The notes under the pieces were generated by a model. The model saw only the letters and a program-made list of their open reading frames with translations, had not been told where the DNA came from and made no database searches. This document shows, piece after piece, positions 273 through 36,570 of a stretch of DNA of 64,000 nt. The translations under genes and the position numbers were made by a program. The DNA is from Pomacea canaliculata (Eukaryota > Mollusca > Gastropoda > Architaenioglossa > Ampullariidae), in assembly GCF_003073045.1 (NCBI RefSeq), contig NC_037597.1, positions 23,202,158 through 23,266,157 on the forward strand. Reading direction: 5' to 3'. Positions within the stretch are counted from its first letter, which is position 1, and each line of letters starts with the position of its first letter.

Positions 273-3200
273 ACGGTTGGAGTACACCATGATAGAGGAA
301 ATTGAAGACTACGCGTTTAAGGGATCTCAGATCTTTAACCTGTGAGTATTTTATCATAAAACATTTGCGTGATTTACAAGTAATTTTCAAGTAATTGATA
401 CAACGAAACATAAGTTACATGTTTCATAAGTTAGAGAAGTTCCCTCGACATTTGCTCAATATCCTTGACAATTACATTTCTTGAACAAAGGAATTTTCCG
501 TTTGCTAGTTTTGCGATCGGACCGGCTAATAATTTTGAAATTTCTGTTTGAAGGATGAAGGATCGTCTTTTTTAAACTTTGTCCAAAAAAAAATGTCAGG
601 ACAAGGTTGTGAAAAAGGTCTTGTGACTTTCCAGACCCGCTGTCACGTGTTTCTGGTCTGTTTGCAGTGATTTCCAAAACAACCCAAACCTGCAGGTCCT
701 TGGAGAAAACGCCTTCAGCGGCATCGCGGACCTCAACAGTCTGTGAGTTCTTCTTTCGTTTGTCTCTGTCGGTGTCATTGCTTCTTGAGATGCAGTGTCC
801 CTGGATGAGAGAGACTATAGTCAACCACACAACAGTAGTTGTGTCATAGACAGACCTCCCCATAACCCTAACCCTTCTTATGGGGGAGCTTGACCCTTCA
901 CACACACACATCACCACCACCACCACCATACAACACCACCGCCACCATACTGCCCTCTTGTGATTGGAAAATTCACCTGCTGGTATTTAATTCTACAATT
1001 AAAATTTCTCCAAGCTTTCTAATTACCTGTACTCCCAACTCGATCGACGGAGTGGTGCTGGGAAAGAAAGATAATTTGCCATGTGGTGCAAACACGAGGA
1101 TTGCTATTTTAGCACTCATTGACAGAAAGGACGGTACACTTTTCACAAACGGTGCAAGAATTTGAAGAAAACCTAAGAAAAACTAATTAAATTTTTTTCA
1201 TGCCTTCATCCCCACCCCACAAATAAAATCATGGAATCGTTGCCTGGTTATGACCAAGAATGAGAAGAAAAGAGCGATTATTTACCAAGTATAACATTTA
1301 TTTATAAATTACACTTGTAAATGTCATCACCAGTGGGTTCTTATTCGTGTAGGTCTGTATGTGCGCGTGCACGAGCGGCTGCGAGTATAAGTATCATTTT
1401 TTTCCGGTGGTCAAGCGAGTGGCTCACTGTTTCTAGGAACCTGTCGAAGACGCGCATCTCCTACCTGCCGACGGAGGGTCTGAGCAACATCAGCGAACTG
1501 AATGTGGAGGATACTCCCAGCCTCAAGCAGTTCCCCTCCGTCTTCAAGTTCTCGCGCATCGACGTGGCGCGACTGACCTACCCGCACCACTGCTGCGCCT
1601 TCCAGCACCCGGAGAAGCAGAACCCTCTGGAATACCTGGAGCACGAGGCCCGGCGCCAGAAGATGATGCTGCAGCACCTGTGCGTCACCTCCTCCCCAGC
1701 TCCACACCTGTCTCCCTCCTCACCTCCAGACGACGGCGGCGGCGGCTTAGGGGGGTTCCACGACTTCCACCCCGCGGTGTCGCTGCGTCGTCGGCGCCGC
1801 CGCAGCAGCAGGGATGATGAGTTCGAGGACGAGAACATCGAGGACCACGGAGGGCAGCTGCACAGCACGCCGCGATCCAACCCAATCGTCGGGTTCGACT
1901 CCGTGGCTGGGACACAGTCGCAGCGGGGTGCCTAGCAACGGGTTCCGCCACTTCTCGTATGGGAAAACCCACTACGCATGCGCCTGCTCGGGACGGGGTG
2001 GGCGGGCCTGAGGGTAACTTCATGCTGTTTCCACAGTATGCACAGCACAGCAGTACAGGTGTGTGTGTGTGTGTGAGTGTGAGTGTGTGATTGTGGTGTG
2101 TGTGTATGCTTGTGTGTCTGCATCTGTGTGTAGTTTGTCTTGTTGACAGCATGCCTATATAATATATGCAGAGACAAATGTAGGTGTTTAGCTGTCAACA
2201 GAAGTTCTTATTACTGCGTGATTGAGTGTGTGATGAAAAAAACGTATGTAATGAGTAATTCAGAATGTTTCAGCTTGACCTAGTTATCTAACATGAAGAA
2301 TTTCACACACCACCCCACCATCTCATGTTGTCAGGCGGCCACAACGACGAGTGGTGGGGGGAGGCCACTAACGTCACGGTCGAGCACGACACCTGCTCCA
2401 CCTTCACCGTCCGCAAGAACTACGCCAACGTCATCTGCACCCCGCAGCCCAACGCCTTCAACCCTTGCGAGGATGTCATGGGGTAAAACGAAAACTGTGG
2501 GACGAGGAGTGTGTGTGTGGTGGGGTGGGGTTAAGTTATGGGTTGTGACCGAGGGTTGGAGAGATCGGAGTGATTTGTGTGGAGGGGTGGGTGTGAGATG
2601 CACTGTGGTCTGTGATGGGGGTTGAGGACTGATGATGAGGGTTGGGGTGGCTGGACGATGACTGGCTGGAAGGACGGGAGAAGAGGAAATTAACGCGATG
2701 AGGAGATAAGGGGAGATGGTGAGATGAAGGGGGTGGCGGAGGAAATGGGTTGCTAACATCACCAGCTGACTAGGTATTAGTGGACCAGGGGGGAGGGATG
2801 AATGGTTTAGACTAGAGGAAGTAAACTGTTTAGGGGTAGTAGAAGTAGGGGTAGGCCTAATGGAACGGCTTGATGGATGACGGGTATCGAGATAAAATCA
2901 TCTTGACGAAAACGGTAAAGTGATGTGGTGGTAACGTGATGAGGTAGAGCGGGTCAGGGAATCGAGTCGATGGGGTTTAAGTCTAACACGTTTTACCATT
3001 GCTATTTCGGTGACGTGGACTACTTTTGTCATAAACTATCTTCTGATTGGTGTCTTGTCACTCGCAATTCTCTATTTCTCTCTCTCTCTCCCTTGCTTGC
3101 AGGTACGAGTGGCTGCGGGTCGTGGTGTGGTTCGTGCTGCTGGCGGCGCTGTGCGGCAACATGGTGGTCATCGTGGTGCTGGTGACGGGCCGGGGCAAGA

Positions 3201-6200
3201 TGACGGTGCCCAAGTTCCTGATGTGCAACTTGTCCTTCGCCGACCTGCTGATGGGGTTGTACCTGCTGCTGTTGGCCTCCATCGACGTGCACTCGCTGGG
3301 AGAGTACTTCACACACGCCGTCAGCTGGCAGAACGATGGGGGATGTCAGGTACCCACAGCCCCGCCAACGGCCTCCTGGACCCTGTGGTCCCACGCCACA
3401 CTACTCTCTTGTCATCCTGTCCTCTTGTCAAACTTTCCTCTGCTTTCATGTTCCAGCCATCCTACCTTCTTTCCTTAACCTTCCTAATTTCTCTTGTCAC
3501 ATCTTTCCAGCCTTCTCTGGCCCCAACATTCCTGCCCTCTAGTCACAATCTTTCTGCCCTATAACCCAGCCTTCCCCATCTTTCTTTCTTGTCATGGTGC
3601 TGTTCCTCTCTTTCTCCCCAGAATCATCGCCGTATGTTCGTCGTGTTACATAATACATCGAAAGACTTCTAGTAACCACCCTTTCATTATTCAAGAGAAA
3701 CATATTTATTATTCAATCTGAAATTATGTTTTTACTGACTTAGTTTCACAGTTTCTAGGGACCTCAGTCTGGTCATCTGTTCCAAATTTTCAGAGTTAGG
3801 CTAAACACACTTTGTATATAATGTACAGACAATTCTCGCTTTATGCAAAATCCACTTTACCTAAAAAAAAAATGTTAAAAATCCAAAATTGTTTCAAGAT
3901 CCTACTTATTTTGGTTAATACCCCAGGCCACCCTCCTTGGTGATTTTAACGATAATGTAAAAATTATCCACCTTCCCCATAACACTTCGTCATTATGACA
4001 ACCTATGGATCAGGGAGAGAGTGCAATGTTCAAGGCGTATTATTTACACATTTACACGCTATTTCTGACAACTCAATGGAGCTCTAGATGCAGATAATAC
4101 ACCGAGAGATTTCTGGAAGTCCAATAATATTTACTATCCACTCCAGAATATTGCTTAGGGGAGACAGATGTAGAAGAAATATGAAGGCAGAGAGCTTGTG
4201 GGGACAGGAGTGAGCATGCAGTTTGTTCCAATTTTCTTGGATTTGACAAAAGATAAAACGTTTGAAGTGAGCAACAAGAATGTACAATTACCACAAGAAC
4301 TGGAGCTAGAAGTGGACGAGACCGATGTGGAGGAGCTGATTTGGTCTGAAGAAGAACTGTGGAATGAGGGGTTGATTAAGCTTCGGAAATTCCAGAAGAA
4401 CTGTCGAAGGAGGATCTGATGAAGCTGTGAAGATTGCTGAAGAAGAAATAAGAACAAGAGATCGAACCAAAATGGTTCACAATGAAACATTTGACAGAAG
4501 CAGCTCATTATTACATTCTTTTCTACTGAAAATATGGGTAAAAATACTTCAATACTTCTATCCTTGGAGATTTTTAAAACTCGTAGGGTAGTTGAGGATA
4601 ATATTTCTTGCTGTCTGCAGTTATAAAAAGGGAAAAAAAAAGAGAACCACTGCTCAAACAGTCTATATACGTTTTTGTTTATTATATTGTTTATTCTAGG
4701 TGAAGTATACCTGTTTATTATTCACACTAGGAGACCTGTCTGTGTAATTATACTTTATTTTACAATGACAGAATAAACTAACTACATTTGACTGTGCAAC
4801 TTTATAGTTAACGTATCAAACATCAGCTCCTAACAGTATGGACTAGTGATGGCAGCTCATCAGGGACGGTAGCCAGGGTAAGCCGTTGCCCTGGGGCATC
4901 ATGGGGGAAACTCAAGGACAAGCATCTTGTTTCCAAAATTTTAAACCGGTGTTCAGATCCCACAGATGTTTTATCTTTGGAGTCATAAAGTGGTGACAAA
5001 AGTACCCAAGGATACAGAAACATGAAGTAGTGTCCTCGGGGTCTGGACATCGTTTTACAACTTCGGAAACAAGATGCTTCTCCTCGCTGTCCTCATTTTG
5101 CCCTGTGGGCTGTGTCTGTAAAAGAGGACCATGCTTAGCAATCTACTAAAAGTTCTAATTAAATAGTAAGCCTTTTAGTTGATTGCTAGGCTAGCACGTC
5201 CATGCACCCAGCCACTTCTAGTCGGGCTCTTGCCGTATGCCTACTGTACAGGTCGTCGCCATGTTCTCTATGTTGATGTTGTTGTTGTTATTATGCAGGT
5301 GGCTGGGTTCCTGACGGTCTTCTCCAGCGAGTTATCGGTGTTTGTGCTGATGGTCATCACGGTGGAGCGCTGGTACGCCATCAGCTACGCCATCCACCTG
5401 ACCAAGCGACTCCGCATCAAGCAGGCCTGGGGGCTGATGCTCACGGGGTGGCTGTACGCCAGCACCATGGCGCTTCTACCCTTGGTGGGTGTTTCGGGGT
5501 ACGGGGCCGTCAGCATGTGCTTGCCCATGGAGGCCAAGGACATCTGGGACAAGCTCTACATCGTCGCCATCCTCCTGCTCAACGGCCTGGCCTTCACCGT
5601 CATCTGCGGCTGCTACATCAGCATGTTCATGAAGGTGCGGGCCAGCGACACCATGGCTCGCAGCAACGACGCCACCATCGCCAAGAGGATGTCAATCCTG
5701 GTGTTGACCAACTTTATCTGCTGGGCGCCCATCGCCTTCTTCGGGCTCACCGCTTCCTTCGGCTTCCCCATGATCGACATCAGCAACTCTAAGATCCTGT
5801 TGGTCTTCTTTTACCCGCTCAACTCCTGTGCCAACCCGTTTCTCTACGTCATCCTCACCAAGCAGTTCCGCAAGGACGTCTTCATCCTGTTGGGCCGCTA
5901 CGGGGTGTGCACGCAGCGCGCCAACCAGTACAAGGGCACCCTGACCCGCAAGTCCGTCACCACCTCGCGCCACAACGGTCTGGTGCTGCAGAGCGTGCCG
6001 CACCACCACTCGGATCTCACCTTCCTGTCGCACGTCAGCACCAAGAGTTCGCGCTGCTCCCTCAACGGCAACACACCAAAGCACTCCCCACAAGGCACGC
6101 CGCACGCCTCGCCGCGCCAGTCACCGCGCGAGGCGTTCAAGCGGCTGGGCTTTCTTCAGGCCGCCTCCTCGCTGGTGTCTCAGGCGGCGGCGGCGGCAGT

Positions 6201-6984
6201 TTCTGCTGCGGCGAGCGGTGGCGGTGGCGGAGGAGGAGGCGGAGCGGCGCTCAACGGCAGCAGCTCGGCACCGGAGACGCCCAATAGCGGAGGCGGCGGT
6301 GTCAAGCACGGCGCTGGCAAGGAGCGGAGGCTCAGCGTTGTACCGGAGTCGAGCCAGGTGTCTGATGATGGCGGCAGCGGCACACACGAGGAGCGCGTGC
6401 TCGAGGCACGTGACTCGCTCCGCGATCTTTTCGACGGCAAACCGCTGGGCCGCGTGCGGAGCGCCAGCGAGTACGTTGTGCTGTACCCCCCTGCTGCCGC
6501 AGCCGCCGCCGCCGCCAAGGACCGAGATCTTGGTCGCGAAGGCCGGCGCCGCTCCTCCCGATACTTGCTGGACAAGCAGCCGTCACTGGACACCAGCATC
6601 AGCAGCAACACTGAGACCTCCTACATCAGCGACTCCTCCTGGACGCGGATGGACAGCTTCGGCTCTGGGCAGGAGGGGGAGTGGCCGGGAACTGCCCGGG
6701 CGGTGGCCACCTCCCGCAAGACGTCCATGGAGAGCGGTTGCGGCGAGCGGGTAGGCAGCCCCTCCTTGGCCTGTGCGCGCATCCGCACTCGTAGTAGTGA
6801 CGTCACGGCGGCCGCTCGTCAGCGCCTGGCCTCCGACGGCGACAGCCCCACCCGCCCCTTGCCCCACTACCAGCTGGTGCGCATCACGCACGGCTCCACC
6901 ATCTTGCAAGACGACAACTGCTCGTCCGGCACCGATGAAGACTACTTGGACGATGAGAGTAAGGTCAAACAGTCGCTACTGTAG
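273..6984 (+). CDS. Type A LGR: glycoprotein-hormone (thyrostimulin-like) receptor, 5' end outside window
   Basis: This is a leucine-rich-repeat GPCR of the TSHR/FSHR/LHCGR family, a plasma-membrane receptor for a GPA2/GPB5-like hormone. Six exons with GT-AG ends and matching phases are visible: 273-341, 668-742, 1437-1927, 2335-2482, 3103-3349 and 5299-6984, giving about 904 residues. The first two are single LRRs (NPNLQVLGENAFSGIADLNS). Exon 3 carries the hinge hallmark YPHHCCAF, and exon 4 the second hinge signature ending NAFNPCEDVMG. Exon 5 holds TM1-TM2 (FLMCNLSFADLLMG). The last exon holds TM3-TM7, with ERW in place of DRY, SICLP-like MCLPMEA in loop 2, and NSCANPFLY in TM7. About 360 tail residues follow, rich in Ser, Ala and Gly. 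Earlier LRR exons and the signal peptide lie to the left. The donor at 1927/1928 is weak (G|GTGCCT) and was chosen because it keeps phase. Whether the ligand is thyrostimulin is inferred from the family. Confidence 0.95.
2056..2125. repeat. TG-rich microsatellite in a receptor intron
   Basis: An imperfect run of TG dinucleotides with interspersed GA lies in the intron between the hinge exons. It is simple-sequence DNA with no coding role. Confidence 0.8.
3826..4560 (+). mobile_element. pogo/Tigger DNA transposon remnant in a receptor intron
   Basis: The segment begins with CAGACAATTCTCGCTTTATG preceded by TA, which resembles a Tigger inverted terminal repeat at a TA target. From about 4200 the plus strand encodes the acidic C-terminal end of a Tigger/JRK-type DDE transposase: ETDVEELIWSEEELW is read, and about 60 bases on, in another frame, EQEIEPKWFTMKHLTEA. 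The two pieces are in different frames, so the copy is decayed, and the catalytic core is missing. A convincing right terminal repeat was not found, so the right boundary is approximate. It lies in the 3350-5298 intron between the TM2 and TM3 exons. Confidence 0.6.
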
Positions 6985-8900
6985 GGTCAGTGCGGATCCC
7001 AGGGGCTCACCAGGGACACGAACATTGAATACTACTTACCCTTCGGAGGTCTTGGGTCTCTCCAGTTCTTCTCATCCCCTACTAACCTACCCGACTTTAA
7101 AAAAAAAACGGTATTGAGAGGTCTGAGCTTTTTTCGAAAGCGACACTGTGACGAAGGCTCTGTAATGTAAGTTCTGTAAGTGTGTGTGTGTTGCTGTCGG
7201 TGACTCTTCTTGTGGTCCCAGCATTACAAGTGGATAATTCTCATCTGCGCATGCGTGTAGCTCCACTTTCTCACCTCCACAATTGCTGTAGTCCGCCCTG
7301 ATGAAAGAAGAACCCCATTGTCAGTGCTGAAGGATGCATAGATGGTTGAGGGTTGAGGGTTGCTGAGGTCGAACGCTTGTTTTGTTTGTTTTTTTTTCAA
7401 TACGATGGTGCTGTTGCGACCATGGATGGCAAGAGCTATTCATGCACGCTGGTACAAACAGACATACACACCTGCCAGTCCCAAACACACATACGGTCAA
7501 ATCTGTCCCCATTACATTTCTCTCTGTCACACACACACATGCCAGTCACATAAACACTACCCAACACACACAAGCACACATCAATTCCCCTAACACATAC
7601 TCTTTCATTCACACACACACACAGCTCTGCCAGTCCCAAAAGTTACTACTCATCACACGTACACACACACACACGCAGGCATGCGCACGAGTGAGCAGCC
7701 CTCACCACACTCGCAGACCACTGTCACTGTCCCACTCCGCCCTTCACAGTGCAGCTTTCATGTCATATCCACCAGTTCCTGTTGCCTCCCTTTACCCACT
7801 TCATCCGGTTCCGTTTCCAACTGTTCATCTTGCATTCCTGATCCCACTTCCTCCTTTCTTCCCTTTCCTCAGTATCTCCCCTCCACCACCCCTTTATTAA
7901 GTTTTGTTCTGCATTTATTCTTTTCTTTTAACTGAAAACACGAGAGCGTCGACCCCAGTGACGTCATCGGTAGGTCACGTGTCATCCAGACGGACTTTCG
8001 TGTGGTGCAACTACATTCCGGACAGGAGATTCCCCTCCCCAGCCCCACTCCTACCGTGGGGGGCTTACCAGGTGTCAACATTGGAAACACGCAGAAATGT
8101 TTTATCTCTGGTCAGACCACAGGCTTTGTCTGAACCAAGTTCACGCCAAGACCGACGTGCCTCAAATTATCCTTGTGTCCCACCTGCTTCACTATGTTGT
8201 TGATATTATTCTAAGATCTCTGTTGATACTGAAGATATATATATCTCCTCTCTCCTTTCTTTATCTCTCTCTCTCGCTTCTTCTCTTGAACGAACAAGTG
8301 TAGGCTTATAGAGAACATTTAAACCCTGATCTCAGCTTAAGTCGGTGGGGACCCTCCATCTGTCGCCCCGCCCCCAGCACTACCACCACCATTCCAACAA
8401 CTTCCCCACCTGTCCGATCTCAGGGTTTGCTTTCATTTACACGTTGAATATTTTGTTAACTTCTCACTGATGCGTTCTCAGCTTCTTCTCCTCGTTACAC
8501 TTACCTACCCCTTCCTTCACTCTCCCACAATGTCCCTCACCCCCCAGCGCACCCCTCGCTATACTCAGACCGGATATCGGAGCATAGTGCCGGAAATGAG
8601 AACCATTAGCACACTTGCCAATCACAGCGAATCACAACCTGAAAGAACTGTCGGCAGGCCCCGTTAATTTATGAGTACTTGGCAGGCTTTAAGCCCGTTT
8701 CCCTGACAAGGGCTCATTGCGTTTTGTACGGTTTCGTCTAGGGTGCGACCAGACCAGCGTTCCTCGCGCTGGAACTTTGGGCCGGTGCGCGCGCAGTCCT
8801 GTGTTCCAGCGGTCCGCAGTTAAAGGATGACCCGAGTCGAACAGGAAATCAAGTGCAATGTTGCTAGCTAACACAAACTGTTCTTAGGTCCTTAAAAAAA
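6985..8900 (+). other. Receptor 3' UTR/flank
   Basis: No coding exon is recognised after the receptor stop codon. The stretch is pyrimidine- and CA-rich and probably contains the 3' UTR. No AATAAA was placed with confidence, so the end of the transcript is not known. Confidence 0.4.
7440..7690. repeat. CA-rich microsatellite region
   Basis: Repeated CACACA runs, separated by short unique segments such as CATGCCAGTC, cover about 250 bases. All six frames here are low complexity. Confidence 0.8.
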
Positions 8901-8954
8901 ATGTTCTAGTGAATTTTTTTTTTAATTACTTTACAAAAGAACACGTGGATGGAC

Positions 8955-9215
8955 CAAAAGTTCGGATACTAAAGGTTGCAGCCAGGACTTTGAGCATAAT
9001 TATATTAATGATTGGGGCGTTGCTCAGTCAGCTACCCGATACTTGTGACATCTTTGCAGGTGACTTGTATTTCCTGAACGAAACACAATGCTTCTCTCAG
9101 ACTGAGGCGGAAGTGGAGGGAAAGAATCTTTTAATGAATGAAACCCACTCATTTATAAATACTTTTGAGCTTGGGTTAGCCTTTAACACCTACCCTGATT
9201 GCCAACCTGTAAGTG
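8955..9215 (+). other. Orphan exon-like ORF segment, function unknown
   Basis: An open frame on the plus strand includes GKNLLMNETHSFINTF and NTYPDC. It is flanked by an acceptor-like CTTTGCAG at about 9059 and a donor-like CCT|GTAAGTG at about 9210. It contains several N-linked glycosylation motifs (NET). I do not recognise the family. A second segment near 15.05-15.22 kb reads similarly. Both may be exons of an extracellular protein or chance ORFs. Confidence 0.25.
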
Positions 9216-9713
9216 TATTCACTTTACATTTTTTAATGACAAATTGTTTTGCGGGTTGCATATTGTTCTGACACGATTGTCTCTTCTGCATCACAGAAGC
9301 ATCAAGAAACATTTCAAGCACATGGGCACCTAGACACGTGCGCTGTAGCATGGAATAATATTCCGTTTCGACAAAGACGCATTTGCTTATTATTCTGATT
9401 CATGTAATGGCGTTGCTATAGTGATTTGAAGATGTGTAGGGGACCGGTGCTTCGTCTCTCAGGTTGTTTATATTAACTCCGTGTGCAATGGTGGTGGATG
9501 GCCTTGCCCCCAAGGGGAAACAAAGTAATGGCGCGAAATCACATTTTCTTGGTTAAAATGCGCGACCTGTGGTCCCCACTGAAAATTGGAGGGATCAAAT
9601 GTCCTTTTACGGCCATCTCTCTATCACAGCACTCCATCGTGTGCCTGGCAGTTGATAGGTTGTCAAGGGAGTCAAAATGGTCTTGTCTCAATATAGCGTC
9701 AGCATTTGGGAGT

Positions 9714-9896
9714 TTTGTTTTTGTTTTTTGTTTTGGTTTGGTTTTTTTTTTTTTTGTTTTGTTTTTTGTTGTTTTTGTTTTTGTTTTTGTTTTTTTTTTT
9801 TGTTTTTGTTTTTTTTTTGTTTGTTTGTTGTTTTTGTTTGTTTGTTTGTTTTTTTGTTTGTTTTTGTTTTTGTTTTTTGTTTTTTTGGTTAGGTTT
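9714..9896. repeat. T-rich (TTTTTG)n-like low-complexity tract
   Basis: About 180 bases consist almost only of T with regularly spaced single G. The apparent Phe/Phe-Cys-rich and Lys/Asn-rich ORFs here are artefacts of this composition. Related shorter tracts occur at 10538-10559 and 10932-10960. Confidence 0.9.
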
Positions 9897-9899
9897 GTT

Positions 9900-12800
9900 T
9901 TTGTAACGTGCGTTGACGGTCTGGTCGTGTTTGTGTGTGTGATTCTCCACCCAGCACGTGCTATGTAGTATGAAAAGTGGGTTCGCATCCTTTTCTTCCA
10001 ATATTCCTGCCTGTGGCTCAATAAATGAAATGAAAAGCTGTTTTGTGGGTTCTCACGATGCAGTTCATAAGCGACTTCTCTCCAAGACCCTACCCTACTC
10101 ACTCCAAGCAGCGTAAATGTGCCACCACAATGATGTCAGGAAGACCGTTGCTTGATTTATTGGGGTCACGTGATCCTATGATACACCGTGCGACTGTTGT
10201 GCTTCGTGCCATCAGCAGATTTGTCAAGCCCGGTGCCAGCCTGCAAGTAGCTAAGCGCCTGACAATGATGCGACTGATAGGGACCATGGTTCCCACACGA
10301 CTTTCAAGAGTTTCCCCATCCCGGGTGACACCATTTAGTGTTGGACAGGCTTCAGACTGTAGTAACCTTACAGGGGACACTCACACACATATCGGACTCC
10401 ATTTTGATCCACACAGCTTTTACTGGCTTCATCTCTTCCACGGCTGTTGTGTAAACAAAAAATCTACCAAACATGACAGCGAGTTAGACAAGAATGTTAA
10501 AACTGTTGAATTGGACTTTGGGGAATTTGGAATCCCTTTTTTTTTTTTTTTTTTTTTTTGTAGACTGCTCTGCCCCTGGTCTATCTCCTGGACAATGGGG
10601 GAAAATTGTTTCCCCTATGACGACACAAACAATGTGCATTGGTTCTCGCCCTTTCTCGATGCTCCGTTCGTCTAGCAGCATTCGCGGATAATATTGGGAG
10701 GAAAGGGGTGAAATTGAGGGCTGTCTGTTTAAGCCCTCATGAATAGGTTGTCTGCGAGATAAGAAATCGCGCGAGAAAAAGTGCGAACGCGAGCAATGTT
10801 CATCCGCGAATAAGCTTTGGTTAGTCCACAAGATTCAATGCGAGGAGCAACATAATCGTTGCTGCTCCTGCTGCAGCAACATTGTCGTCCCCGTGTTGCT
10901 GCATTGACGACAACAGAAGACAAGAGCCAAATGTTTTGTTTTGTTTTGTTTTGTTTTGTTGCAGCAGGCCATTTGCGGAGTAAGAGCGAGAAAATATCAT
11001 TGTCAGAGAACAGTGTAAACAGTCAGATGGAAATCTCACTGAAAACCCGTTGTTGTTCTTATTGTTGTTGTTGGAAATATCTACTATTCCTATGTCAAAG
11101 GCAAACACTTGAAGTCTGGTCTAAAAGGGTTACAAGCATCAGTCCACCTTAAACAGAAATACTACCTGACCATCTCCAGGCATCCCTCAGCTTCGCTGTT
11201 CCTCAAACCTACTCTGTGGCGACTACCGCTGGACCAACGAGTGCCTTCCTCCTGCGTCTAGACAGCTACAGGAAACTTCAGCTTCTGCTCTTGCATCCTC
11301 CCTTGGACAGTAACACACCACCACCTTCCCCGCCTTCTCTCTCTCTCAGCATTTCATTTCCCTGGGAAGCCGTAGGGTGCACATCCTACTGAAATGTCTC
11401 GTCATTGGACTTCACTTCGGTATTTACTTACCTGTGCGGGCTGTCGCTGTTTAGGTACATCTACAACAGTCATCACTTGCCTCTACTGTAGTTATTATTT
11501 ACTTGCATTTAAAGTAGTTCCTTCCTCTTGTTACTTCTGAAGCAGTCACCTCTGCAGAGTTCAATAGATACGCTAGAGACATGAATGACTGCTGCAGAGG
11601 AAACTCAAATAGTGACAACCCCCACAGGTAAGTAAATACCAAAGGAAAGTCCAGTGATTAAATGTGGAATAAGTGTTTCGCTTTAAGTACGTATACATCA
11701 TTCCTGTAACCAGGTGTACATGTGTACCTGTATTTTTTACACGTGTGAACTTACATCCAACCCCAAGTAATGTAAGGCAGTCGTCTTAGGTATATATATA
11801 TAGTCGTTTTCACACCCCTGACTCACACTGGAGCGCAGTATGTAACAGATATATGTCATATTCTCTCACCCTCGCCATCCCAACCCACACACACACATAC
11901 ATCATATAATCGCGAATTCAAACAGCCATTTTCTCCGGCTTCACAAGCCGTAAGCCATTGCGAGAAGCCTGTGGCCAGACTCCAGTCTGACAAGAGAAGA
12001 TTAATCTCGATAATGTGACACATCCCTCAGGACCGCGCCTCCAAGCTCGAGCGGGAATAATACCGCGACGTGGACGAACATATCGCCTCCATCTTGCACA
12101 GGGAGGACCCGGCGACCAAAATTACTTTCCCCTGTTTCGCGCCCGGAAGAGGGCGCTGGTGTTCTTTCATCTGGAAAAATATTTCAGGACTGGGGAAGTC
12201 GGGGGACAGGTCTTGAGGAGGACAGGGAAAGTGCGGACGATAAAAGCATGTCACAAACCAAACAGCGATGGCGTTCATGCAGATAAATGGATTTAAAGAA
12301 GCGAAGTGGAGGGACTGAGGAAAGAAGGTATAAAGGACAAAGTAAATCCTGAAGGTGGGAACCAATGTTTTTGCCCACAGCACGAAACGCGGAGTGTCCC
12401 TTTTTCTTGGTAGCTCTTGTTATGTTGATACTCCGTCAGGCCCTTAGAATATAATGCTGTTTTTTCAGACCCATTCAATCCCTTAACAGGTTGATTTTGT
12501 ACACTCTGTCATGCCCCTAACGGGGTATTCTTTTCTGGGTGTTTGCTGGCGGCGGCGAACGGTAGGGAAGAGCAGCAACGGGACCACCGCGTTCGTAGGG
12601 AAAATACAGGCTTGACATAAATTTTACCTCCATGACAATATCTCGCACATAATCTTCCTTCTCTGGACTGGCATCCGTCTGACCTGTAGCAGGATTTTCT
12701 ATCCCAGTCCTGGTCGACCCATAATAAGTTGTCCTCTACACCAGCCCCCACCTGCCTCCATCGTAAGAGGTACGATGTTTCCCTCTTCTTTTATTCGATT

Positions 12801-15000: not shown

Positions 15001-15039
15001 TGTTTATTTCAATACACTGCAAGTCTGTTGCCTGCAATT

Positions 15040-17169: not shown

Positions 17170-17286
17170 ATTTTTTTTTTTTGTTGTTTGTTTGTTTGTT
17201 TTGTTTTGTTTTTTTTTTTTTTGTTTTGTTTTGTTTTTGTTGTGTGTTGTTTTTTTTTTTTTTTTTTGTTTTGTTTTTTTTTTTTA
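17170..17286. repeat. T/G low-complexity tract
   Basis: A run of T with scattered G (TTTGTTTTG-like) about 115 bases long. The Phe-rich ORF that covers it is compositional. Confidence 0.9.
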
Positions 17287-17423
17287 TGCGCAAAGACATT
17301 CTAACCTAAGAAACAGTAATTTAGGTTTGGCTAACGACCACAACAAAAATTACGATTGTATCACAGACGCGTTCGGTGTCACGATCTGAACCTTCGCCTC
17401 AGGTGGTCCAACGACCCGCTCAG

Positions 17424-17467
17424 TGCGCATGCGCCGGCAGGCGAGAGAATGCGCATGCGCAGGCAAG
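17424..17467. promoter_or_regulatory. Two tandem palindromic NRF-1-type sites
   Basis: GCGCATGCGC occurs at 17425-17434 and again at 17451-17460. Each is followed by a similar GGCA(G)G stretch, so the pair looks like a short tandem duplication of about 26 bases. The decamer matches the known NRF-1 core TGCGCATGCGC, a common CpG promoter element in animals. No gene start is visible nearby, so promoter function is only a possibility. Confidence 0.35.
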
Positions 17468-17590
17468 TTCGAAACGTTATCTTGACATAATAATAATAAC
17501 AAATGCAGAATTTGTGAAGCGCATACTCACACTCCTTAAGGAGCACGCTGCTATGTGGACAGCATACTAGGGACATGATAATAAACAAAT
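17466..17590 (-). mobile_element. SINE copy (TTA-tailed family), minus orientation
   Basis: Read on the minus strand, the segment contains TGTCCCTAGTATGCTGTCCA, then GCTCCTTAAGGAGTGTGAG, then ATGCGCTTCACAAATTCTGC and a TTATTATTATTA tail. The same blocks occur in the same order at 40960-41100 on the plus strand, so this is a dispersed repeat. The end structure is that of a SINE with a short simple-repeat tail. Exact ends and target duplication are unclear. Confidence 0.65.
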
Positions 17591-17599
17591 AACATATGA

Positions 17600-19640: not shown

Positions 19641-22600
19641 TATGTCACATACTGTAAATAACATTTGTGCAAGGAGATCTATGCATATTTTCATTTCTTT
19701 AATAATCTATACATTATATCATTAATATTGAATTACCTTGGCCTCTTGACATCACAATCACATCTGGTTCATTTAGGACAGAACAGGTTGCATACAGAAG
19801 AATCCCTAAGTTTCATTTAAACAATGGAATACTTTATAAAAACACACACACGTTATAACACACACACATAAAAAAATGGGCATATTTTGTCAACATAATT
19901 ATGACAAATATCAGCAGAGGTATTATTATGAATTTACAAAATATTTTAAAGAAAAACAAAAGCCCCTTCCAGTAATACACATAAAGCATTATGACCATGC
20001 TTAAATAGTTTTTTCCAGCAATCTACTTTCACTAAAAGTTGTCTTATAAGACTTTGCACACATACTATCACCACATTCCACAAAGAAAACCCTTTACCAC
20101 CGTCTTCCCTTTACTATTAAGATCAATTTTGATATACTCTTTAACTTAAAAACAACAATTTATACCAGACAAATAATCCAAGCATCTCAAATATCATGAA
20201 ATGTGTCGCACCATCACCCTACCCCATTAGAATCAATGTTTTTATGGGAAATTCAGAGCACAGCAAAAATATTTAACATTTAGTAATAAACAATGCTAGC
20301 AAATGTAGGTGGGGAGTTTTTTTTTCTTTAAAACACAAAATATTGCAATTACAACAGTCTGCACATCACATCTCATGGTCATAACAAAACCTTCATAGAA
20401 ATAATACATGAAAAGAAGAAAATCACACATTAGATTCTATGACACTCTTGGTAAAAAGAGAAAAGGTCAACTTACTAAAATTTGCAAATCCCCTAAGCTA
20501 GCTGTCACCAGTTAGACAAACTTGCACAAGTGTTAAGGAAGGGATGTTTTGCCATAATGTTTTTACACTAAGCAGCTAATAGCAGCAAACAAGCATCTCT
20601 TATTTGCATCTGAAGCTATCAAGTAAAAATAAGGTAAAATTATGTTAGCAAGATTGCATAAAAAAGCTGTTTCAAATACTCTTTGTTCATCAAAACTTTC
20701 CCTTCCATTTCAGATCAAGTCAAAATGGTACGAATTTGGTCGGTTTGCGTATTCAGTGATACTGCTGTTAAGATATATGAAACCTGAAATGAATCACATG
20801 AAGACCTGACAGTTGATATCATAATTACTGGTTCCATAATTAATACAGAAAAAACAAATCTGGTTATAAGTGCTAGGAAAATATATGTGAACATACATAA
20901 ATGACTCAAGCGGTTTACAAATTCGCAACTATTGCTAATCAAAGCACAAAAAAAAAAAGTAATACCATTGCACTAGGCAAATTTTTGTCAAATGTTTTAG
21001 TTCAGAGTAAATTCATAGTAGCTCAAAGGACATTATTTGTTTAAATGTATGCTCTCTTGTGCATACCAATATGCATTATTCTTAATGAACATTAGACAGC
21101 TTGCTTTAGAAACTTTGAATTATGGCTAGCCAGTGAATCCACACTTAGCAGTTTAAGAAACATGTTTTTCTTCTTCCTGCTCCCAAACATTCAGCAAGTA
21201 TGTTTAGCACCTATAGAACAGTAAATATATAGTGCCAGACAGAGGTAGCAATAACTGAAGTCCTCATTCTGGATATTATTCTTTACCCTACTTTACTTAT
21301 GCAGCATTGTAACTGAGCCACAGCAGTTTACATTTTAAGTGATGCTATTAAAAAAAGCATCGTGAGTGGCATGCAATGCCAAATGAAAACTTTTGGCACT
21401 CCTGTAACACTACTGAGTGGTTTTTCCCACCAAAATGCCCTGCACAGTAAGAAATATCCAGATGCTTTAACTACAAGAAAATGTAAATCTCAGGCACTTA
21501 GATATCAAACCTTATGTCAGCTAATTCCTTTACCACTGCCTCTCTCTTTTTTTCCCTTCGAAAACATGATTGTGTAAAAGACATCCTGTCTCTTTTAAAC
21601 ATGTAACCTGGGTATTCTTCAGGACAAGTTCTTTGTTTAACATTGCAATTTAAAACCTACTGCAACTCAAAAACAAGTCTATATAATATATTGATATATT
21701 GTGAATTTTGCATTTCAATCAGTATACATATATTACTACATACATCTTCGCAACTTGGGGGGAAAATGCATCACAATTCTAAAACATACTATAAAATTTA
21801 AGAAAATGTATCCATAACTGTGAACTGTAAAGAGCAGGGTGTGTGTACTTTTTTATCTGCTATACAAATAATAGTGAGATTACTAGATATCAATGAAATG
21901 CACACAATGGAAAATCAATGGCAAAGAACTAAAAAAAATGTGTCTGATATGCTCTAGGGAGGAAAAGTCTAATGATGTATGGCTTCTCTTTTTTCTTTAA
22001 AGCATGCAGATGTGTGTATGGGTGCATGCATGAACACACAAACAATGCTTGCACTTGTGCACTCACAATCTAAGACAACAGAAAAGAAGTCAAGAAGAAA
22101 ACAGAAATCTTGAGCTTAACGGGAATTTTTACCAGGCAAAAATCTCCAAATATGGCACAAGACAAATCCACAATTTAAAAAAACAATTTAAAATTTGTCT
22201 CATCCATTCTTTCACAATTTTTACCCTGAGTTTTAGTAGTTCTCTTAAACAGTTTAGAGGCGTTTAGATAATTATATGCAGCTGGATGAAACGAGAGTAA
22301 AAGGCCAAAAGAAAATGTATGAAGAAGTGCAAAGGACAGTAAAATAACAATTCTTTTGCTAAGGACCATGTATCCCTAGCACATAAATTATCACACATTA
22401 TGTAACGAGAGTGGAAAGGCTGCAGTATCTCCACACTAGAAAATCTAGTGACTTCTCAAATTAGCAGATCAACTGGTCATCTTTTTTCTCCACAAGGGCG
22501 GCATGATGTAAGAAAACACAGTGTGTTCATCAGCGTAGCAACATCAGAATGAGCATGCAGTAGTTCAGCAGCCAAAGTGTCACATAAGGGAAATGTTATG

Positions 22601-22667
22601 TTGTCATAAACCTGGCTGTGCTGCAAGATGATGTTCACCTATAGTATGGCACACAAAACAGCTGCTG
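19640..22667 (-). other. Probable long 3' UTR/flank of the TFIIA gene
   Basis: The sequence downstream of the TFIIA stop codon is uniformly AT-rich, lacks coding signal, and differs in composition from the DNA left of about 19.6 kb. This suits a long 3' UTR of up to 3 kb. TTTAAT near 19636, which is ATTAAA on the minus strand, is one possible poly(A) signal, but the true end cannot be fixed. Confidence 0.35.
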
Positions 22668-25600
22668 CTACCATTCTGCATCTCCACTGGCTTTTTGAAA
22701 GACAAAATCCCTTCCATTTAGATTCATGATGCCATCCTTCAGAGTAAACTTCCATTTGTTTTTGTTTCTGTTGATCTGCAAACATGGCATTCAAACTGAA
22801 TTATTTTTCACTTACAGTACAGTGTGGGGTAATTGCCTTGTTCCTTTTGAAAAAAAAATTTGAAAAATTTGTAAGCACAGAAAAATCTAAAATAGTCATA
22901 AACTATAAGTGTTAGACACTCATTTAAGCACAGAACCACTAAATTTAAACATGTTCCTCACTTGCATTCACAACTAGAAACAGATCACTACCTTAACTGT
23001 CAAGTCCCTTAAAGATGTTAGCAAACAATATATATATGTAGCAAATCCTATCAACAATTTCTGAAAGCATTTTTATTTGTGAAACTATTATGCCCAGACT
23101 GAGCAAAATAACATACAATAAACATGCACATGTGCAAGTTCACACAACACACATGCCTGTGCTCCACAGACACGGAGTGGGGATGGGTGTTTTTGTCTAG
23201 TTGTTAACACACTTTGAGGAGCATGTGTTTAAAATTTTAAAACTTCGCCTTTCATGCTTGAGTCAAGTTTATATATAGTCAAGCCATACCTCAATTTTTT
23301 ATTAACAATATTCTGTGTTGGCTGCCATAAGACTGGATGAAACATTGTCATTTAGATTGAATGATCATGCCTACCTTGTCATACTGACACACCACAACAT
23401 TCTCAGCATCAAATAGTTCTGTGGGGTCTTCTTCACTGACATCATCTGCAGAGTTTAAAGGTTCCTGAAACAAAAAGAACAGGATGTACCTTCTCTTCTC
23501 AGGGCTTGTATCCCACCACAGGACACGTAGTTGTCCTCTGCTACTAACATAACCAAATAAGCTGCAAGAATCTGAATGCAGTACAGGACATATGTAACAT
23601 AAAATTCTACTCTCCCACTTAAGACTCACTTCCTCTTCTCCTTGTTCTGCATCCTCATCATTCTGTTCCTCTTCATTATCATCATCATTTTCATCATTGT
23701 CAAAATCTTCGTCTTCTGACGAGCTGGTGTCACCTGTGCCATCAAGCTGGATGATACCAGACTGGTTCTAAAATGTAAGAAAGAAAAATGACTTACACAG
23801 AAAAGTCAGGCAGACCCAGGTCAAGCTATAACACATAGCTTCAAGTTGTACCACTGAATGCTATATTATGCTGTACACATTTATCACAATTGTTCAAACA
23901 TTTAATGCAGGCAAAATTACAGCAGACAATTTTTCTGAAAATATGCTAACATATACATTTCAACAATCAACAAAAACTGGCCACTCACTGGGGCTGCCAC
24001 CTGTGCTATGTTTGCCACATGCTGCCCTGACTGGCTCTGCACAAATGTCTGTTGAGGAATGGTAATTGTGGCAGTAAGTCCTTGAGCTCCACCAGCAAGA
24101 TTCTGTACTATGAAATGTCCATTACCTGGTAATCCACAAAAAGAATACATACCCTTATCACACACACAAAATTCTATGTAAAGTCAATCTTCAGTGATAA
24201 AAGACCAAGGAATCAGCAGAGAGAGATTGCACAAAAGTGAGAGGTTTATTCTTCTCCCTAAAAAAATTCATCTACTCATGATCAGAAGCATATCAGCACT
24301 ATACGCAGATTAATCATGCGCATACAACAGCCAATGACTTACCAGTGGGCTGCAGTGTTACATTCTGTGCCTGACCTGCTCCCAATGCAGCGATCTGGTG
24401 CTGGAACAAGCCCACCGGAAGAGCCATTGTTGCTGCAGCTGCTGCTCCTGACTGGGTGTAGAAGAGGAAAAGATGATTATGATCTCTGTTTGGCTTTAAT
24501 ACAAATTACTTGCAATTTGATCACAAGCAACATCTCACGACCAGTTTCAGAATTCTCTACTAAAATTCATTTCAAGTATTAAGACTTCTATTTTTCTGAT
24601 GAAGGAAATAAGAAAAACAGGGGGGAAAAATACTGGAAATTGGTACATCTTGTAAACAACATTACAAAAAGCTTTTTAGACTTTGTACATTAACACTATG
24701 TTATGCATAATGGTGTAAAAGGCTGCAGAGCAGTGCCTCACGTAATGCAAAATTTAATTCTCAGGACACATACAACTCATCTAAACACAACATTATGACA
24801 GACATACTAACAACAATAACCTTCTAGGGCAGACCTGGGCAAAGGCCGGCCCGCGGGCAGGATCCGGCCCGCCTCCTGTCTCTGACCGGCCCGCCCGCTG
24901 GCCCGCCCGCCAGTATATATATATACTATGTATACAGTATTGGGTAAAACTGAGTTAGCTATATTAGTCCGGCCCTCTAAAAACATCCCAATTTCTCATG
25001 CGGCCCCTTGGGAAAATTAATTGCCCACCCCTGTTCTAGGGCATACCCCTGAGAAAATTCGTTTAAAAGTCCAGTAATTATTAAGTAGTCTGTACAAAAA
25101 GACAAGAATGCGGAGCCCTAGAGCAATAGCACATTCAAACTGTTTACTCACCAGCTCCCTAGCTTGATTTGTGATAGACACAGGGAATGTTTGCTGTGGC
25201 TGCTGTGCCGCTGTTGCCAGCACTAAAGGAAAATATACCAAAAAAAAAAAAAAAGGAATAAATCAAACACAGACCTAGGATCTAAAGAGTAAAGAGTCTA
25301 TTATAACAAGATCAAAAATTTATCACAACAGTACAGCTGACTGCTAACACCAGATTTTCAAACATAATAACAAAAAGTCCAAAACACCTGTTCCTTAATT
25401 AATATTACTTCCTGCACAAAACATCTTTCTAGAACAGGGGTGGGCAAATAGCGGCCCGCGGGCCGCATGCGGCCCCCCAAGTGGTTCTCTGCGGCCCGCA
25501 GAAGCCCTTTGGCAACACAAAAAAAATATTACCGAAAACAAGTTACGCTTAGTCCCTTCCCATGCCTGCTGCGTACGTAATGGCCGGCCTTGATGCACCT

Positions 25601-28600
25601 GATGAATTACAACTTGAACTGATACACCTTCAATCAGATCATGCATTGAAGGAAAGGTTTTATTCCCTGTCACTGGTTGAGTTTTTATAAGTGCCTCTCC
25701 AACAAATCATTTCCTTGTTTAAGAGTATTTGCTGCCCAGCTATTTCAATATTTGGTTCAAGTTACATCTGTGGCAAAGTTTTTCCTGCATGAATATAAAC
25801 AAGTCAAAGAACAGGTCATTGCTTTCAGATGCAAAACTTGCAGTCAGTTATGAGAGTATTTCTATCAGTTTATAATTTTGAGCCAAATTTTAAAAGAATT
25901 GTTCAGCAAAAATGTATTCAAAACATTTTTTCTCATTAAATTGTGTGTTGCTTAATTGTTCATTCTGGTTTTCTATTTATTCTACAGTGTTACATATTTA
26001 ATGTGCTCATTATTAAATAAATGCGTTTGTTTACAATTTGGCGATTTTACGTCGTTTTTGTATTCAATTACAAGGTGCGGCCCTCGGACTAGTCATGACC
26101 CAGCAATGCGGCCCTCGCAACAAAAAAGTTTGCCCACCCCTGTTCTAGAATATTTCAAGACGCAATTCTTAGAGTACATCTCAAGGTTTTACTTTTCATT
26201 TTCAACTAACCATCAGAATAGGTACTAGCACACAAAAATTGGGTTTTTTATGTGTTTCTGTTATTTTAACAAGAAAGTACATGAAAATATAAGAAAAACG
26301 AAACAGAGTCTCTATCTCTGTTTTGGAGATATTGCTAATTGAAAATGGTGATTTGCCTCACAGCTTTACTTTGGATCATGTTTGAAATATCTGAAGATCT
26401 CAGAAGTACCCAAATACTTTGTATGAGGAGTTACCAACACTTTCTTTCAATTCAAGTGACTAAAAAGCTAATTTGCAAAAATGACATACTGGAAAATACA
26501 CATCAAAAGTTTGAAGAGCTTTGTACTTTGTGTTGTCTCTTATTGTGCATTAGAACTGTTATAGTCTTTAAAAAATACATAGGCATTTTTTCCAATGTTT
26601 AATTCATTTAATTCATATATTTATCAATATCCATGAAAAAGCTAGTGAACAAGAACACAAATACCAACCCAACCACCAAAACACATTGCAAAGCACACAG
26701 AAAATGGCCACCGCCTGTATGTCGGGTACCATTTATCTTCCCAATGATTTTTTCCAGTCACACAAAACAATGAGATCTGTTATTCAACTGATGAAAAGTT
26801 GTTCTTTAATGTGATATATAAAATACTTTGATTCTCCTGCCTTCATGACCTTAGCAATTAGCACATAAAGACACTAAAACAGTATAAACAAAATCTGTAT
26901 AACAGGCACTTAATTAAAAAAAATATTTAAGAAACTACCTCCACGGGGAACATAACCCTGGTGTAGTGCTTGTGACTGTGACTGTTGCAGAATGAGAGGG
27001 TAGGAGGTGGGCAAGTGCACTTCTGTTTCAACATTTGCTGGTTCCATTGCCTTTGATGCACTCAGTTTGGTTTCCCATAACTGCAAAAAGGACACCAGGT
27101 ATTATGATTTAGCTCAAACTGTGTTTAGCTCTGTGACTCTTAATTTTTGCTGCATAATATATGCCACCATAACCATATCAGCATAAAGCTTATGTCATGT
27201 CCACTTAAAGAAACAGCATTAATGTGTTGAACATCTTAAATGCATTTTCTACAAAAAATAAAAATATTTTGCTTGCATCAAATTAAACAATCAATATTAC
27301 ATTCAAGCCGTCTCTCTAAACAAGTATATGCTTATGATACATATCTTTTATTCTGCTATATAGCTGCAGCATAATCATCAGGTTCCACATCATAATTCCT
27401 TGATCCACACTTTTATTCATTCTGACAGACTTAAAACTTTCTCAGCTGTGCAAAGGTATTACAAACACAGAAATGAATCAATTTATTTTTGTTATATTTA
27501 ATTTGAACTATAATAAAGGTAATTCACATCTAAAAATTTATTGCCATTATTTTATGCATTGAAAAAACAGCAAAATGCAAGATAGTTTAAGATAAACTGT
27601 TCTTAAGAACCCTAGTGCAGTCTGCACAAAACTGCATAAAAATGGGTGTGAGTAAAACCATACCTCATCATTATTAAACTGTATATTAATAAATGTTTTA
27701 AAAAATTAATTTAAATAATGCTTAACAACATATCTCTATACTGAGTTATGCAAGGGACAAAGCCCACTGCATAGGTTTAAAAATGCACATGCAGATTGCC
27801 TCCCTTGAACTGTTAGCATTTAATTTTGTATACACAACAAATATAAAAATGTGCATACGCCATAAGATAAAATACACCACTGTCACTACAACCAGTGTGG
27901 TCCAGAACTGACGAATTCAAAAATTAATGTTATGCCATTGCCTTTTATTGCTGACCACAACATTGTCATTTATGCTATGATTAAGATTACACCCATGACT
28001 GAGACATCAATTTTTTTTCCATGATATAAAACTAATAAAACCAATTAAGACCTATTATAATAGTTAACTTCCAACACAATGATCTCAAAATTAAGTAACA
28101 ACACTACAAATATAATCAGACATCAAAGCAGTGTAAGACAGGTACCAAACAATATTAATCATTGGAATTGATATTTAGCATTTAAGGAATTCAAATTAGT
28201 CAGTAATAAAATAATGTACCTGTCTCAGCTCCTGAAGCACCTGCTCATCAACACCTTCATCCAGAAAGGCTTCTTTCACATTGTTAATAACATCATCCAC
28301 AACTGTTTTATACAGTGAACTCTGTTAAAAACAAAATATTTCAATCATAATTAAAAGTAGCACACTTTCATTTTGATCTTTGTTAAACCAATAAAATTAA
28401 ATAGGGGATTAATTTCTATCAATAAATTAGTTTTTTAAGTATTTCATATGCAAATGTAAACCATGCAAAAACTAAGATTCTGTTTATCTTCTTTTCAGTA
28501 TATTGTTTTTGTTCTTTCTTTCACTTGCTCATATTTTCAACCTTGTAACTTGAAATTATTTGTAACTAGAACTTTTAGATATAGTAACTGAGCACATCTC

Positions 28601-30080
28601 CCATTTTAAATTGCCCATTGGGATTAACAAGTTGGTCATTGTCATTGTGAATATATCTCTAAACACATGAACAGGCATGGAGTTGCACACAACACTGCAG
28701 CATTTCATTCTGTTGCACGCATCATCATACAGTAATCCTTTGTTTATTGCGGAAGAAGCGTTCCAGAACCACCAGCGATAACCGAAAATCCACGAAATAG
28801 AAACAGTATATTTATTTATGTAATTATACACTATATTAAGGCTTTATAAACCCTCCCTGATACTTTTACGCTACATAAACCTTTCCCATTTCCTTAATAA
28901 CCATTCACACACTGTTGTTTACAATGCGTGTAGCATCTCAGGTAAGCGATGCTGGTTCTCGTTTCAGAGTTAATACATACACTATTTTCTGTAATCATAT
29001 TAATTTTATTATTTATATTTCTTTAGTGTTAGAATTAATATTAATAATATAGTTTGATACCCTTTGGGCTTTTTTCATCTAGAAATATTTTTTTTGATGT
29101 CCACTGATTGAATTTTGCAGAAAGTCCGCGAATCAATTTTCCCATTAATTTCTTATAAAAACCTGCAAAATAGTGAAGTCGCGAAAGGTGAGGCGCGAAG
29201 TGGAAAAGGATTACTGTATTGCTACATAAAAAAAATTATGAAGATAACAACAAATGTATGTGCATGGTTCTAACTTTTTCAAAAAAGGCAAATATACTTA
29301 TTTCACTTTTACCAGATTATATATATTTTTTCCTTTTTGGATCCACTTATTTGTTCATACAGCACCAATAGGTACTAGAACTGTTATGAACTAATTTTAC
29401 TAGTTTAATATTGTTGGTGTGAAAATTTATATGGGAAATCTCTTGAAAACCACTGATTCAGGAGAAATCATACGATCAAGTCAATTGTCACTTGAGAGGC
29501 ATTCAATTCTGGGAGTTTGAAATGTCGATGCTCTTTCCAATACAGGAGACATTGTTGCCATGTGCTCGTAGTCTTTGTATCGTTATGGTCTGTTCTTATC
29601 TTTCATTTTCGACAAAAACGCAGCAATAATAACTTTTGTCTACACTTATGGATGCTCTTTACGACCTACATGTGATAAAAAAATTTCGTATTACTAAGCA
29701 TCACTTTTGGAATATGTGCTCATGACATCAGTACACAGGTATCTGTTGTAAATTTTTTGCTTGTCTATGAGAGGGAGTTTAATGCGTCGCATTGGGGTGT
29801 GAAGGTAACACCGACAGACTCGACTTTTATCTTGAGAAGATTATTAGTTACAGCAGCATTACAATAGGAATAATGAACCATGAAAACAATTCAAAATATT
29901 CTCCTCTTTATTCTGACCCGATTGTTTCTCTAGTTCTAGGTCAAACTGCGCTATGATTTCAGCTTATCGTGTTCAGACGCTGACGAGAATTAAGGCAAGT
30001 GAAAATCTCTTTCTAATAAAGAGAGGGAGTTGAAATTATATATTACACCAAACACTCACGACTTGATTTGCGGTGGACAT
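22668..30080 (-). CDS. GTF2A1: General transcription factor TFIIA alpha/beta precursor, complete
   Basis: TFIIA binds and stabilises TBP on promoter DNA in the nucleus, and this precursor is normally cleaved into alpha and beta chains. Nine exons on the minus strand join in frame to 305 residues (human about 376): 30060-30080, 28220-28321, 26939-27080, 25152-25222, 24343-24451, 23989-24125, 23630-23767, 23375-23464 and 22668-22775. The start reads MSTANQV. Exon 2 is the conserved four-helix bundle (SSLYKTVVDDVINNV, FLDEGVDEQVLQEL). The middle is a Gln/Ala-rich linker. Exon 7 holds GTGDTSSSEDEDFDNDE and an acidic run. The last two exons hold the beta-barrel (LFDAENVVVCQYDK, NKWKFTLKDGIMNLNGRDF) ending SGDAEW, like human. 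The acidic DG(T)GDTSSxED region around the usual taspase-1 cleavage site is present. All splice junctions are GT-AG and keep phase, so the gene looks intact. Confidence 0.97.
24830..25033. mobile_element. hAT-type MITE, 204 bp, in a TFIIA intron
   Basis: The element runs from CAGACCTGGGCAAAGG to TTGCCCACCCCTG and is bounded by perfect 8-bp direct repeats TTCTAGGG at 24822-24829 and 25034-25041. Eight-base targets containing CTAG are typical of hAT transposons. It has a GC-rich left part with repeated GGCCCGCC blocks and a TATA-rich centre. A second copy lies at 57992-58146, and the termini resemble those of the 708-bp element at 25435. It has no coding capacity. Confidence 0.9.
25435..26142 (+). 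mobile_element. Internally deleted hAT transposon, 708 bp, with a transposase remnant
   Basis: The ends CAGGGGTGGGCAAA and TTTGCCCACCCCTG form a perfect 14-bp inverted repeat. The flanks are perfect 8-bp repeats TTCTAGAA (25427-25434 and 26143-26150), the signature of hAT insertion. From about 25580 the plus strand encodes a hAT transposase C-terminal piece (DAPDELQLELIHLQSD, then RFYSLSLVEF) of the kind found in GTF2IRD2/FAM200-like domesticated genes. The frame shifts soon after at about 25681, so it is dead. The remainder is AT-rich. It sits in the TFIIA intron between 25222 and 26939 and is probably the source type for the shorter MITEs. Confidence 0.9.
28730..29216. mobile_element. Tigger/pogo-type MITE, 487 bp, in TFIIA intron 1
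   Basis: The ends CAGTAATCCTTT and AAAGGATTACTG are inverted copies flanked by TA on both sides, as expected for Tc1/mariner-superfamily pogo elements. Inside the left end the motif TATTGCGG and inside the right end CGCGAAGTGG match the usual Tigger subterminal pattern imperfectly. No transposase remains. It lies in the TFIIA intron between exons 1 and 2. Confidence 0.85.
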
Positions 30081-36565: not shown

Positions 36566-36570
36566 GAATC

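Follow-up and report, generated by a model that had tools for sequence, protein, structure and literature searches.

Results

A predicted glycoprotein hormone receptor gene and a TFIIA alpha/beta gene lie tail to tail in the snail genome

We analysed a stretch of 64,000 nucleotides of the Pomacea canaliculata genome (G000:C8:23202158-23266157; hereafter the window), in which a gene for a predicted type-A LGR, that is, a glycoprotein hormone receptor, on the plus strand is followed by a gene for TFIIA alpha/beta on the minus strand. The two genes are immediate tail-to-tail neighbours, with the receptor ending at 6984 and the TFIIA stop codon at 22668. The assembly comprises 440,159,624 bases in 24 contigs, of which C8, the contig with the window, accounts for 29.5 Mb or 6.7% of the genome; the genome is described as 440 Mb in 14 chromosomes of 27.2-45.4 Mb with 21,533 gene models (PMC6129957). 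Coordinates refer to the window, and positions in its flanks are given in the same system in kb, with negative values lying left of the window.

Within the window, the receptor begins with two leucine-rich repeat (LRR)-type exons at approximately 273..342 and 670..743, which were read by eye from their IEEIEDYAFKG and LQVLGENAFSG cores and, like all receptor frames below, are on the plus strand. They are followed by an open frame (1321..1932) in which we recognised by eye the hinge exon with the motif HCCAF, the borders of which are not fixed and for which there was no Pfam match, and by an open frame (2292..2483), likewise read by eye, with the end of the hinge (CTPQPNAFNPCEDVMG), including the motif FNPCED. 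Transmembrane helices (TM) 1 and 2 are encoded by an exon in the open frame 3047..3475 (7tm_1 5e-7, slightly below the curated cut-off), and TM3-TM7 together with the C-terminal tail in the open frame 5179..6984, the stop codon of which ends at 6984 (7tm_1 1e-22). When compared with the chains of solved structures in PDB, the hinge end and TM1-TM2, matched jointly, gave LHCGR (1.7e-40), FSHR (8e-40), TSHR (8e-39) and LGR4 (4e-13), while the 5179-6984 frame gave LHCGR (2.8e-75), TSHR (1e-72) and FSHR (4e-68) and, more weakly, LGR4 (7e-25) and relaxin receptor 1 (4e-16). We take CCAF and FNPCED to be the hinge motifs after which type-A LGRs are recognised, and CCAF to be present in the vertebrate chains; FNPCED is also found in the LHCGR, FSHR and TSHR chains. 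One further LRR-type exon was found by pattern left of the window, where a type-A LGR ectodomain would have roughly ten repeats in all. Because a signal-peptide exon (recognised by eye; no Pfam match) lies ~53 kb left of the window, the receptor gene spans ~60 kb, more than originally given. Of note, the C-terminal tail contains alanine and glycine runs (6180-6620), which we presume to be unlike the tails of the vertebrate receptors.

The TFIIA alpha/beta gene (22668-30080, minus strand) was modelled with nine exons that are joined at GT/AG sites into a complete frame of 305 residues with no internal stop. Exon 1 (30060..30080) encodes MSTANQV and runs into GTGAGT; it is followed by exon 2 (28220..28321), exon 3 (26939..27080), which contains LWETKL and whose Pfam match is weak alone (0.016), exon 4 (25152..25222), the donor site of which is the least certain, exon 5 (24343..24451), exon 6 (23989..24125), the acidic exon 7 (23630..23767), exon 8 (23375..23464) and exon 9 (22668..22775), which ends with GDAEW and the stop codon. 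Exon 7 contains QLDGTGD, which we take to be a taspase-1-like site. The Pfam family TFIIA was matched at both ends of this one intact gene, at the N end in exon 2 (4e-12) and at the C end in exon 9 (1e-21), and also in the frame with exons 7 and 8 (2e-13); moreover, exon 9 matched the TFIIA subunit 1 chain (1.6e-16). All enumerated splice paths (360/360) were open to DAEW and the stop codon, and the alternative models vary only in the choice of nearby splice sites. In a genome search in which 96 of 1006 candidates were scored, three exon matches exceeded the cut-off, all of them at this one locus; a fourth match, on C1, was considered as a second TFIIA locus and rejected because it fell below the cut-off.

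The 15.7 kb between the two genes (6985..22667) contain no recognised gene by a scan of open reading frames (ORFs): all 100 ORFs of 55 amino acids or more were compared with Pfam, and none was a plausible gene. Three marginal matches (Pex24p, 0.0027; ZNF512_C2HC, 0.0047; a viral family, 0.0047) were considered as signs of an intervening gene and rejected, none being convincing. The matches to PDB chains and Pfam families and the nine-exon model bear out the identities that the original prediction had given to the two genes, and the scan of the gap bears out the convergent layout with no recognised gene in between. Assuming 21,500 genes, the chance that two given genes are immediate convergent neighbours is ~2e-5 genome-wide; given that both are on C8, it is ~1.4e-3 for adjacency and 3.5e-4 with orientation. 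The adjacency in the mollusc exceeds chance.

Placement of the receptor and a second LGR

Judged by sequence, the window receptor is a type-A LGR with a seven-transmembrane domain nearest to those of TSHR, FSHR and LHCGR. Its identity to LHCGR, FSHR and TSHR is 52-55%, as compared with 32% to LGR4, and in a genome search with a receptor exon (150 of 278 candidates scored) its own exon scored 540 bits, whereas the runner-up scored 95 bits and was 33% identical. From a short match on C3 with 48% identity we read a second LGR (C3:14816000-14822000), the TM pieces of which are split over five open frames, one of them nearest to FSHR, TSHR and LHCGR. The C3 gene is 53% identical to the window receptor and 49-51% identical to the three vertebrate receptors, and it carries MPCDD in place of FNPCED. 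Its hinge sequence PCDDLFGWW and its loop AVCLPFE resemble the insect bursicon receptor, and the gene is probably of the bursicon-receptor (LGR2) type.

In the best tree, the window gene groups with LHCGR, FSHR and TSHR while the C3 gene lies outside (approximate likelihood-ratio test/ultrafast bootstrap 86.5/79), and the approximately unbiased (AU) test gave 0.91 for this tree versus 0.13 and 0.085 for the alternatives. A position of the receptor inside the TSHR/FSHR clade, as the original prediction requires, is what the best tree returns, while the AU test retains other placements beside it. We note that many of the 150 matches scored with the receptor query fall into arrays of long open frames (C14 at 4-7 Mb, C11 at 10.6-11 Mb, C2 at 3.3-3.6 Mb, C9 at 3.8 Mb, C7 at 11 Mb and C6 at 28 Mb), in which LGR-like or rhodopsin-type receptors have probably expanded on a large scale. 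Two of the matches are on C8, ~0.26 and ~0.60 Mb beyond the right end of the window.

Vertebrate counterparts and origin of the adjacency

We take human TSHR and GTF2A1 to be neighbours on convergent strands on 14q31 and a second copy of the pair to be present on 2p16. The vertebrate TSHR-GTF2A1-STON2 block is like the snail locus in that the receptor and TFIIA alpha/beta genes are close together and, in human, presumed convergent. The FSHR/LHCGR-GTF2A1L-STON1 block, which we place on human 2p16, would be a paralogous copy of the receptor-TFIIA pair, with two tandem receptors where the snail has one. CEP128 was not recognised left of the snail receptor, which is a weak test. Published accounts group these genes as follows: in dog, CEP128, TSHR, GTF2A1, STON2 and SEL1L are known genes of one 1.5-Mb haplotype (PMC3375262); in chicken, CEP128, GTF2A1, STON2, SEL1L and DIO2 are listed within 500 kb of TSHR (PMC4460094); in human, STON1, GTF2A1L, LHCGR and FSHR are among the genes affected by one locus (PMC11048332); and in Nile tilapia, ston1 is placed 5' of lhcgr1 (PMC4536197). 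The vertebrate neighbours named in the original prediction are grouped in the dog, chicken and human papers, which supports the vertebrate side of that prediction in part, the exact human order and strands being presumed.

Unlike in the TSHR-GTF2A1-STON2 block, no stonin gene was recognised beside the snail pair. A stonin gene is on the same contig, at 4.06 Mb (C8:4057000-4064400), but 19 Mb from the pair at 23.2 Mb, and the expectation of a stonin gene near the pair was thus not borne out. It has a frame of 1207 amino acids rich in NPF, which we take to be a stonin feature. All 15 PF00928 matches genome-wide were considered as candidates for a stonin gene beside TFIIA alpha/beta and rejected, none being nearer than 19 Mb; further PF00928 genes lie at 2.05 Mb of C8 and on C2, C7, C10 and C11, and none of them is closer to the pair.

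We consider it likely, as the best reading, that the convergent receptor-TFIIA adjacency was already present in the last ancestor that molluscs and vertebrates share and was passed down to both. In favour of this are the identities and layout of the two genes, the grouping of the receptor with the vertebrate three in the best tree, the single TFIIA locus over the cut-off, the low chance of adjacency even within C8 and the 14q-type families around the pair (see below). The sole TTC7 locus, two of the three SIX genes and a stonin gene, all of which are on C8, point the same way. The snail receptor would then be the pre-duplication counterpart of TSHR, FSHR and LHCGR, and the pair would have been carried by an ancestral chromosome whose genes are for the most part found today on C8 of the snail and on the human arms 14q and 2p. 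The surrounding genes would have been shuffled within this chromosome while receptor-TFIIA and a second pair, Pecanex/MLK, described below, stayed adjacent, and this retention most likely reflects slow neighbourhood decay in a conserved chromosome, with or without mild regulatory constraint. The linkage likely predates the protostome-deuterostome split, and both its common descent and its age are likely on the comparison of one mollusc with vertebrates. Ancient bilaterian microsyntenic blocks, in which local order has been kept since the bilaterian ancestor, are of the same kind, 256 new blocks being reported in that ancestor versus 45-56 in shuffled genomes (PMC8851819), and so are the chordate linkage groups kept in scallop, in which chromosome content has been kept (PMC7269912). 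Ancient bilaterian microsynteny is a known kind of phenomenon, of which the snail pair would be a good but ordinary example. We found no published report of the TSHR-GTF2A1 pair outside vertebrates in a search that did not extend to supplementary microsynteny lists.

Several points weigh against such an old inheritance. Because one invertebrate genome, that of the snail, was examined, the date of the linkage rests on one mollusc and vertebrates. Neither in Drosophila nor in C. elegans are the receptor and TFIIA genes known to adjoin each other. A rival tree that involves the second receptor, on C3, is not significantly excluded by the AU test, and stonin is far from the pair. The third SIX gene is on C4. 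The only Cys_knot match in the genome, considered as a candidate ligand gene on the same contig, was rejected because it is on C5, although the genes surrounding human GPHB5 are reported to belong to a single chordate linkage group that amphioxus and limpet have retained (PMC4079206). Two papers on vertebrate receptor synteny do not mention gtf2a1 in their main text (PMC4536197, PMC4227674). Finally, 84% of the blocks of the bilaterian ancestor are reported to have been lost in vertebrates (PMC8851819), and therefore survival is not the rule.

Both genes could instead have shared an ancestral chromosome and become neighbours separately in the snail and in vertebrates. Genes do move within a conserved chromosome, as illustrated by the distant stonin gene and by the human relatives of the snail block, which we take to be scattered over 14q, and therefore some chance neighbours are unavoidable genome-wide; nevertheless, the chance of adjacency for two genes on C8 is low (~1.4e-3, or 3.5e-4 with orientation), and both human copies of the pair, on 14q31 and 2p16, are taken to be adjacent, in part on the papers cited above, making separate juxtaposition distinctly improbable. 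Even less credible, and in our judgement very improbable, is that the window receptor is itself a mollusc gene of the bursicon-receptor type, so that the likeness to the human pair would be one between paralogues. The 53% identity between the two snail receptors and the alternatives kept by the AU test would fit with this placement, but the best tree and the identities to the vertebrate receptors (52-55% for the window gene versus 49-51% for the C3 gene) favour the window gene as their counterpart, and it has FNPCED like the vertebrate three while the C3 gene has MPCDD.

A regulatory lock would add to common descent rather than replace it: enhancers of the receptor would be located within introns of TFIIA or past that gene, with TFIIA as a bystander, and because of this location the pair could not be separated without harm. 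The pairing of a regulated receptor with a housekeeping gene, the 15.7 kb between them with no recognised gene and the presumed maintenance of the pair in both vertebrate copies would all be in line with such a lock, and the mechanism has been described for other pairs (PMC8851819). Slow decay alone, however, can keep many pairs, and we judge the lock to be rather unlikely. We hold it to be unlikely that receptor-TFIIA forms a functional regulatory unit more than 500 million years old, in which receptor control elements within or past the TFIIA gene would have held the pair together in molluscs as well as in the two vertebrate copies that followed genome doubling.

If inheritance of the adjacency from the ancestor of molluscs and vertebrates were confirmed in further phyla, gene order at the pair would provide an anchor for tracing how the family of pituitary-hormone receptors arose, and a single locus of the bilaterian ancestor would have given rise to both the TSHR and the FSHR/LHCGR locus as its copies. 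Stonin would then have joined the locus later in chordates or left it in the snail, and the adjacency could serve in comparative endocrinology as a marker for telling true LGR1 from LGR2.

Gene content of the surrounding region

To the right of TFIIA, the window contains a DCAF4-type WD40 gene on the plus strand (37816..41417; Beta-prop_DCAF4 2e-20, over the cut-off, and 1e-5 and 3e-4, below it), with a possible first exon in the open frame 36532-37401. AADAC-type esterase exons are found at 51100-52732 on the plus strand (Abhydrolase_3 2e-10 and 3e-7), and weaker signs of an AADAC-type esterase at 63516-66300 on the minus strand (0.013; one ORF of the right flank, 1e-4). In the right flank, 92 of 105 ORFs of 86 amino acids or more were scanned with Pfam, as were 57 of 86 plus-strand ORFs in pieces L027-L028. 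The flank holds PPM1A/B at 73 kb (PPM1B 1.4e-97, PPM1A 6e-90) and then Pecanex at ~90-115 kb on the minus strand (Pecanex_C 5.9e-42 and 2e-20; N terminus by eye) and an MLK-type kinase on the plus strand from 115.8 kb, within a region of ~90-130 kb (MAP3K9 1.6e-59, MLK4 6e-51). Pecanex and MLK are a second pair, head to head, with likely start codons ~640 bases apart. We take human MAP3K9 and PCNX1 to share this head-to-head arrangement, and MAP3K21/PCNX2 and MAP3K11/PCNX3 to be linked as well.

Further to the right, a GPATCH2-type gene lies at 146-152 kb, identified from a G-patch and an N-terminal motif that were read and from resemblance to known sequence, its first exon having no Pfam match, followed by HIF-alpha at 167-178 kb (bHLH_HIF1A 4e-27; HIF1A 6e-26). 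A KNL2/MIS18BP1-type gene was tentatively assigned at ~190-200 kb from exons read by eye and weak domain matches among the 57 ORFs (SANTA 1.2e-4, Myb 0.0065); its largest frames gave no match. Left of the first exon of the receptor, the only Pfam matches among the 98 of 110 ORFs scanned in pieces L005-L009 were DEAD (6e-5) and nSTAND3 (2e-4).

We take the human homes of these families to be 14q31.1 for TSHR and GTF2A1, 14q24.2 for DCAF4, MAP3K9 and PCNX1, 14q24.3 for GPATCH2L, 14q23.1 for PPM1A, 14q23.2 for HIF1A and 14q21.2 for MIS18BP1, with copies of some on 2p (FSHR/LHCGR, GTF2A1L, PPM1B and EPAS1) and the AADAC relatives off 14q. By these positions, 9 of the 10 conserved families within ~255 kb that we were able to recognise have a relative on human 14q, and the original prediction, which had rightly placed DCAF4 on 14q, understated the case. 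The rough P is 2e-9 and, without the three families of that prediction (6/7), 2e-6; both values use presumed human positions and numbers of human relatives, an assumed 3.2% of genes on 14q and genes treated as independent, and are measured against that share rather than against control stretches of the snail genome. Confirmation of the receptor-TFIIA pair in further phyla would point to an origin of snail C8 from an ancestral chromosome of the 14q/2p type; if the whole of C8 came from one such chromosome, most of C8 should look alike.

The count of ten leaves aside four kinds of feature. These are a non-LTR (long terminal repeat) retroelement between TFIIA and DCAF4 with several frames (32030-34923; endonuclease 7e-8, reverse transcriptase 2e-14), ORFs without an identification (e.g., at ~-88 to -83 kb and at 137 kb), and two multi-copy features, a Kunitz inhibitor gene with several domains (42902-43504, minus strand; Kunitz 3e-56) and a histone cluster (H2B, H4, H3 and H2A) that was recognised by eye at 205-211 kb.

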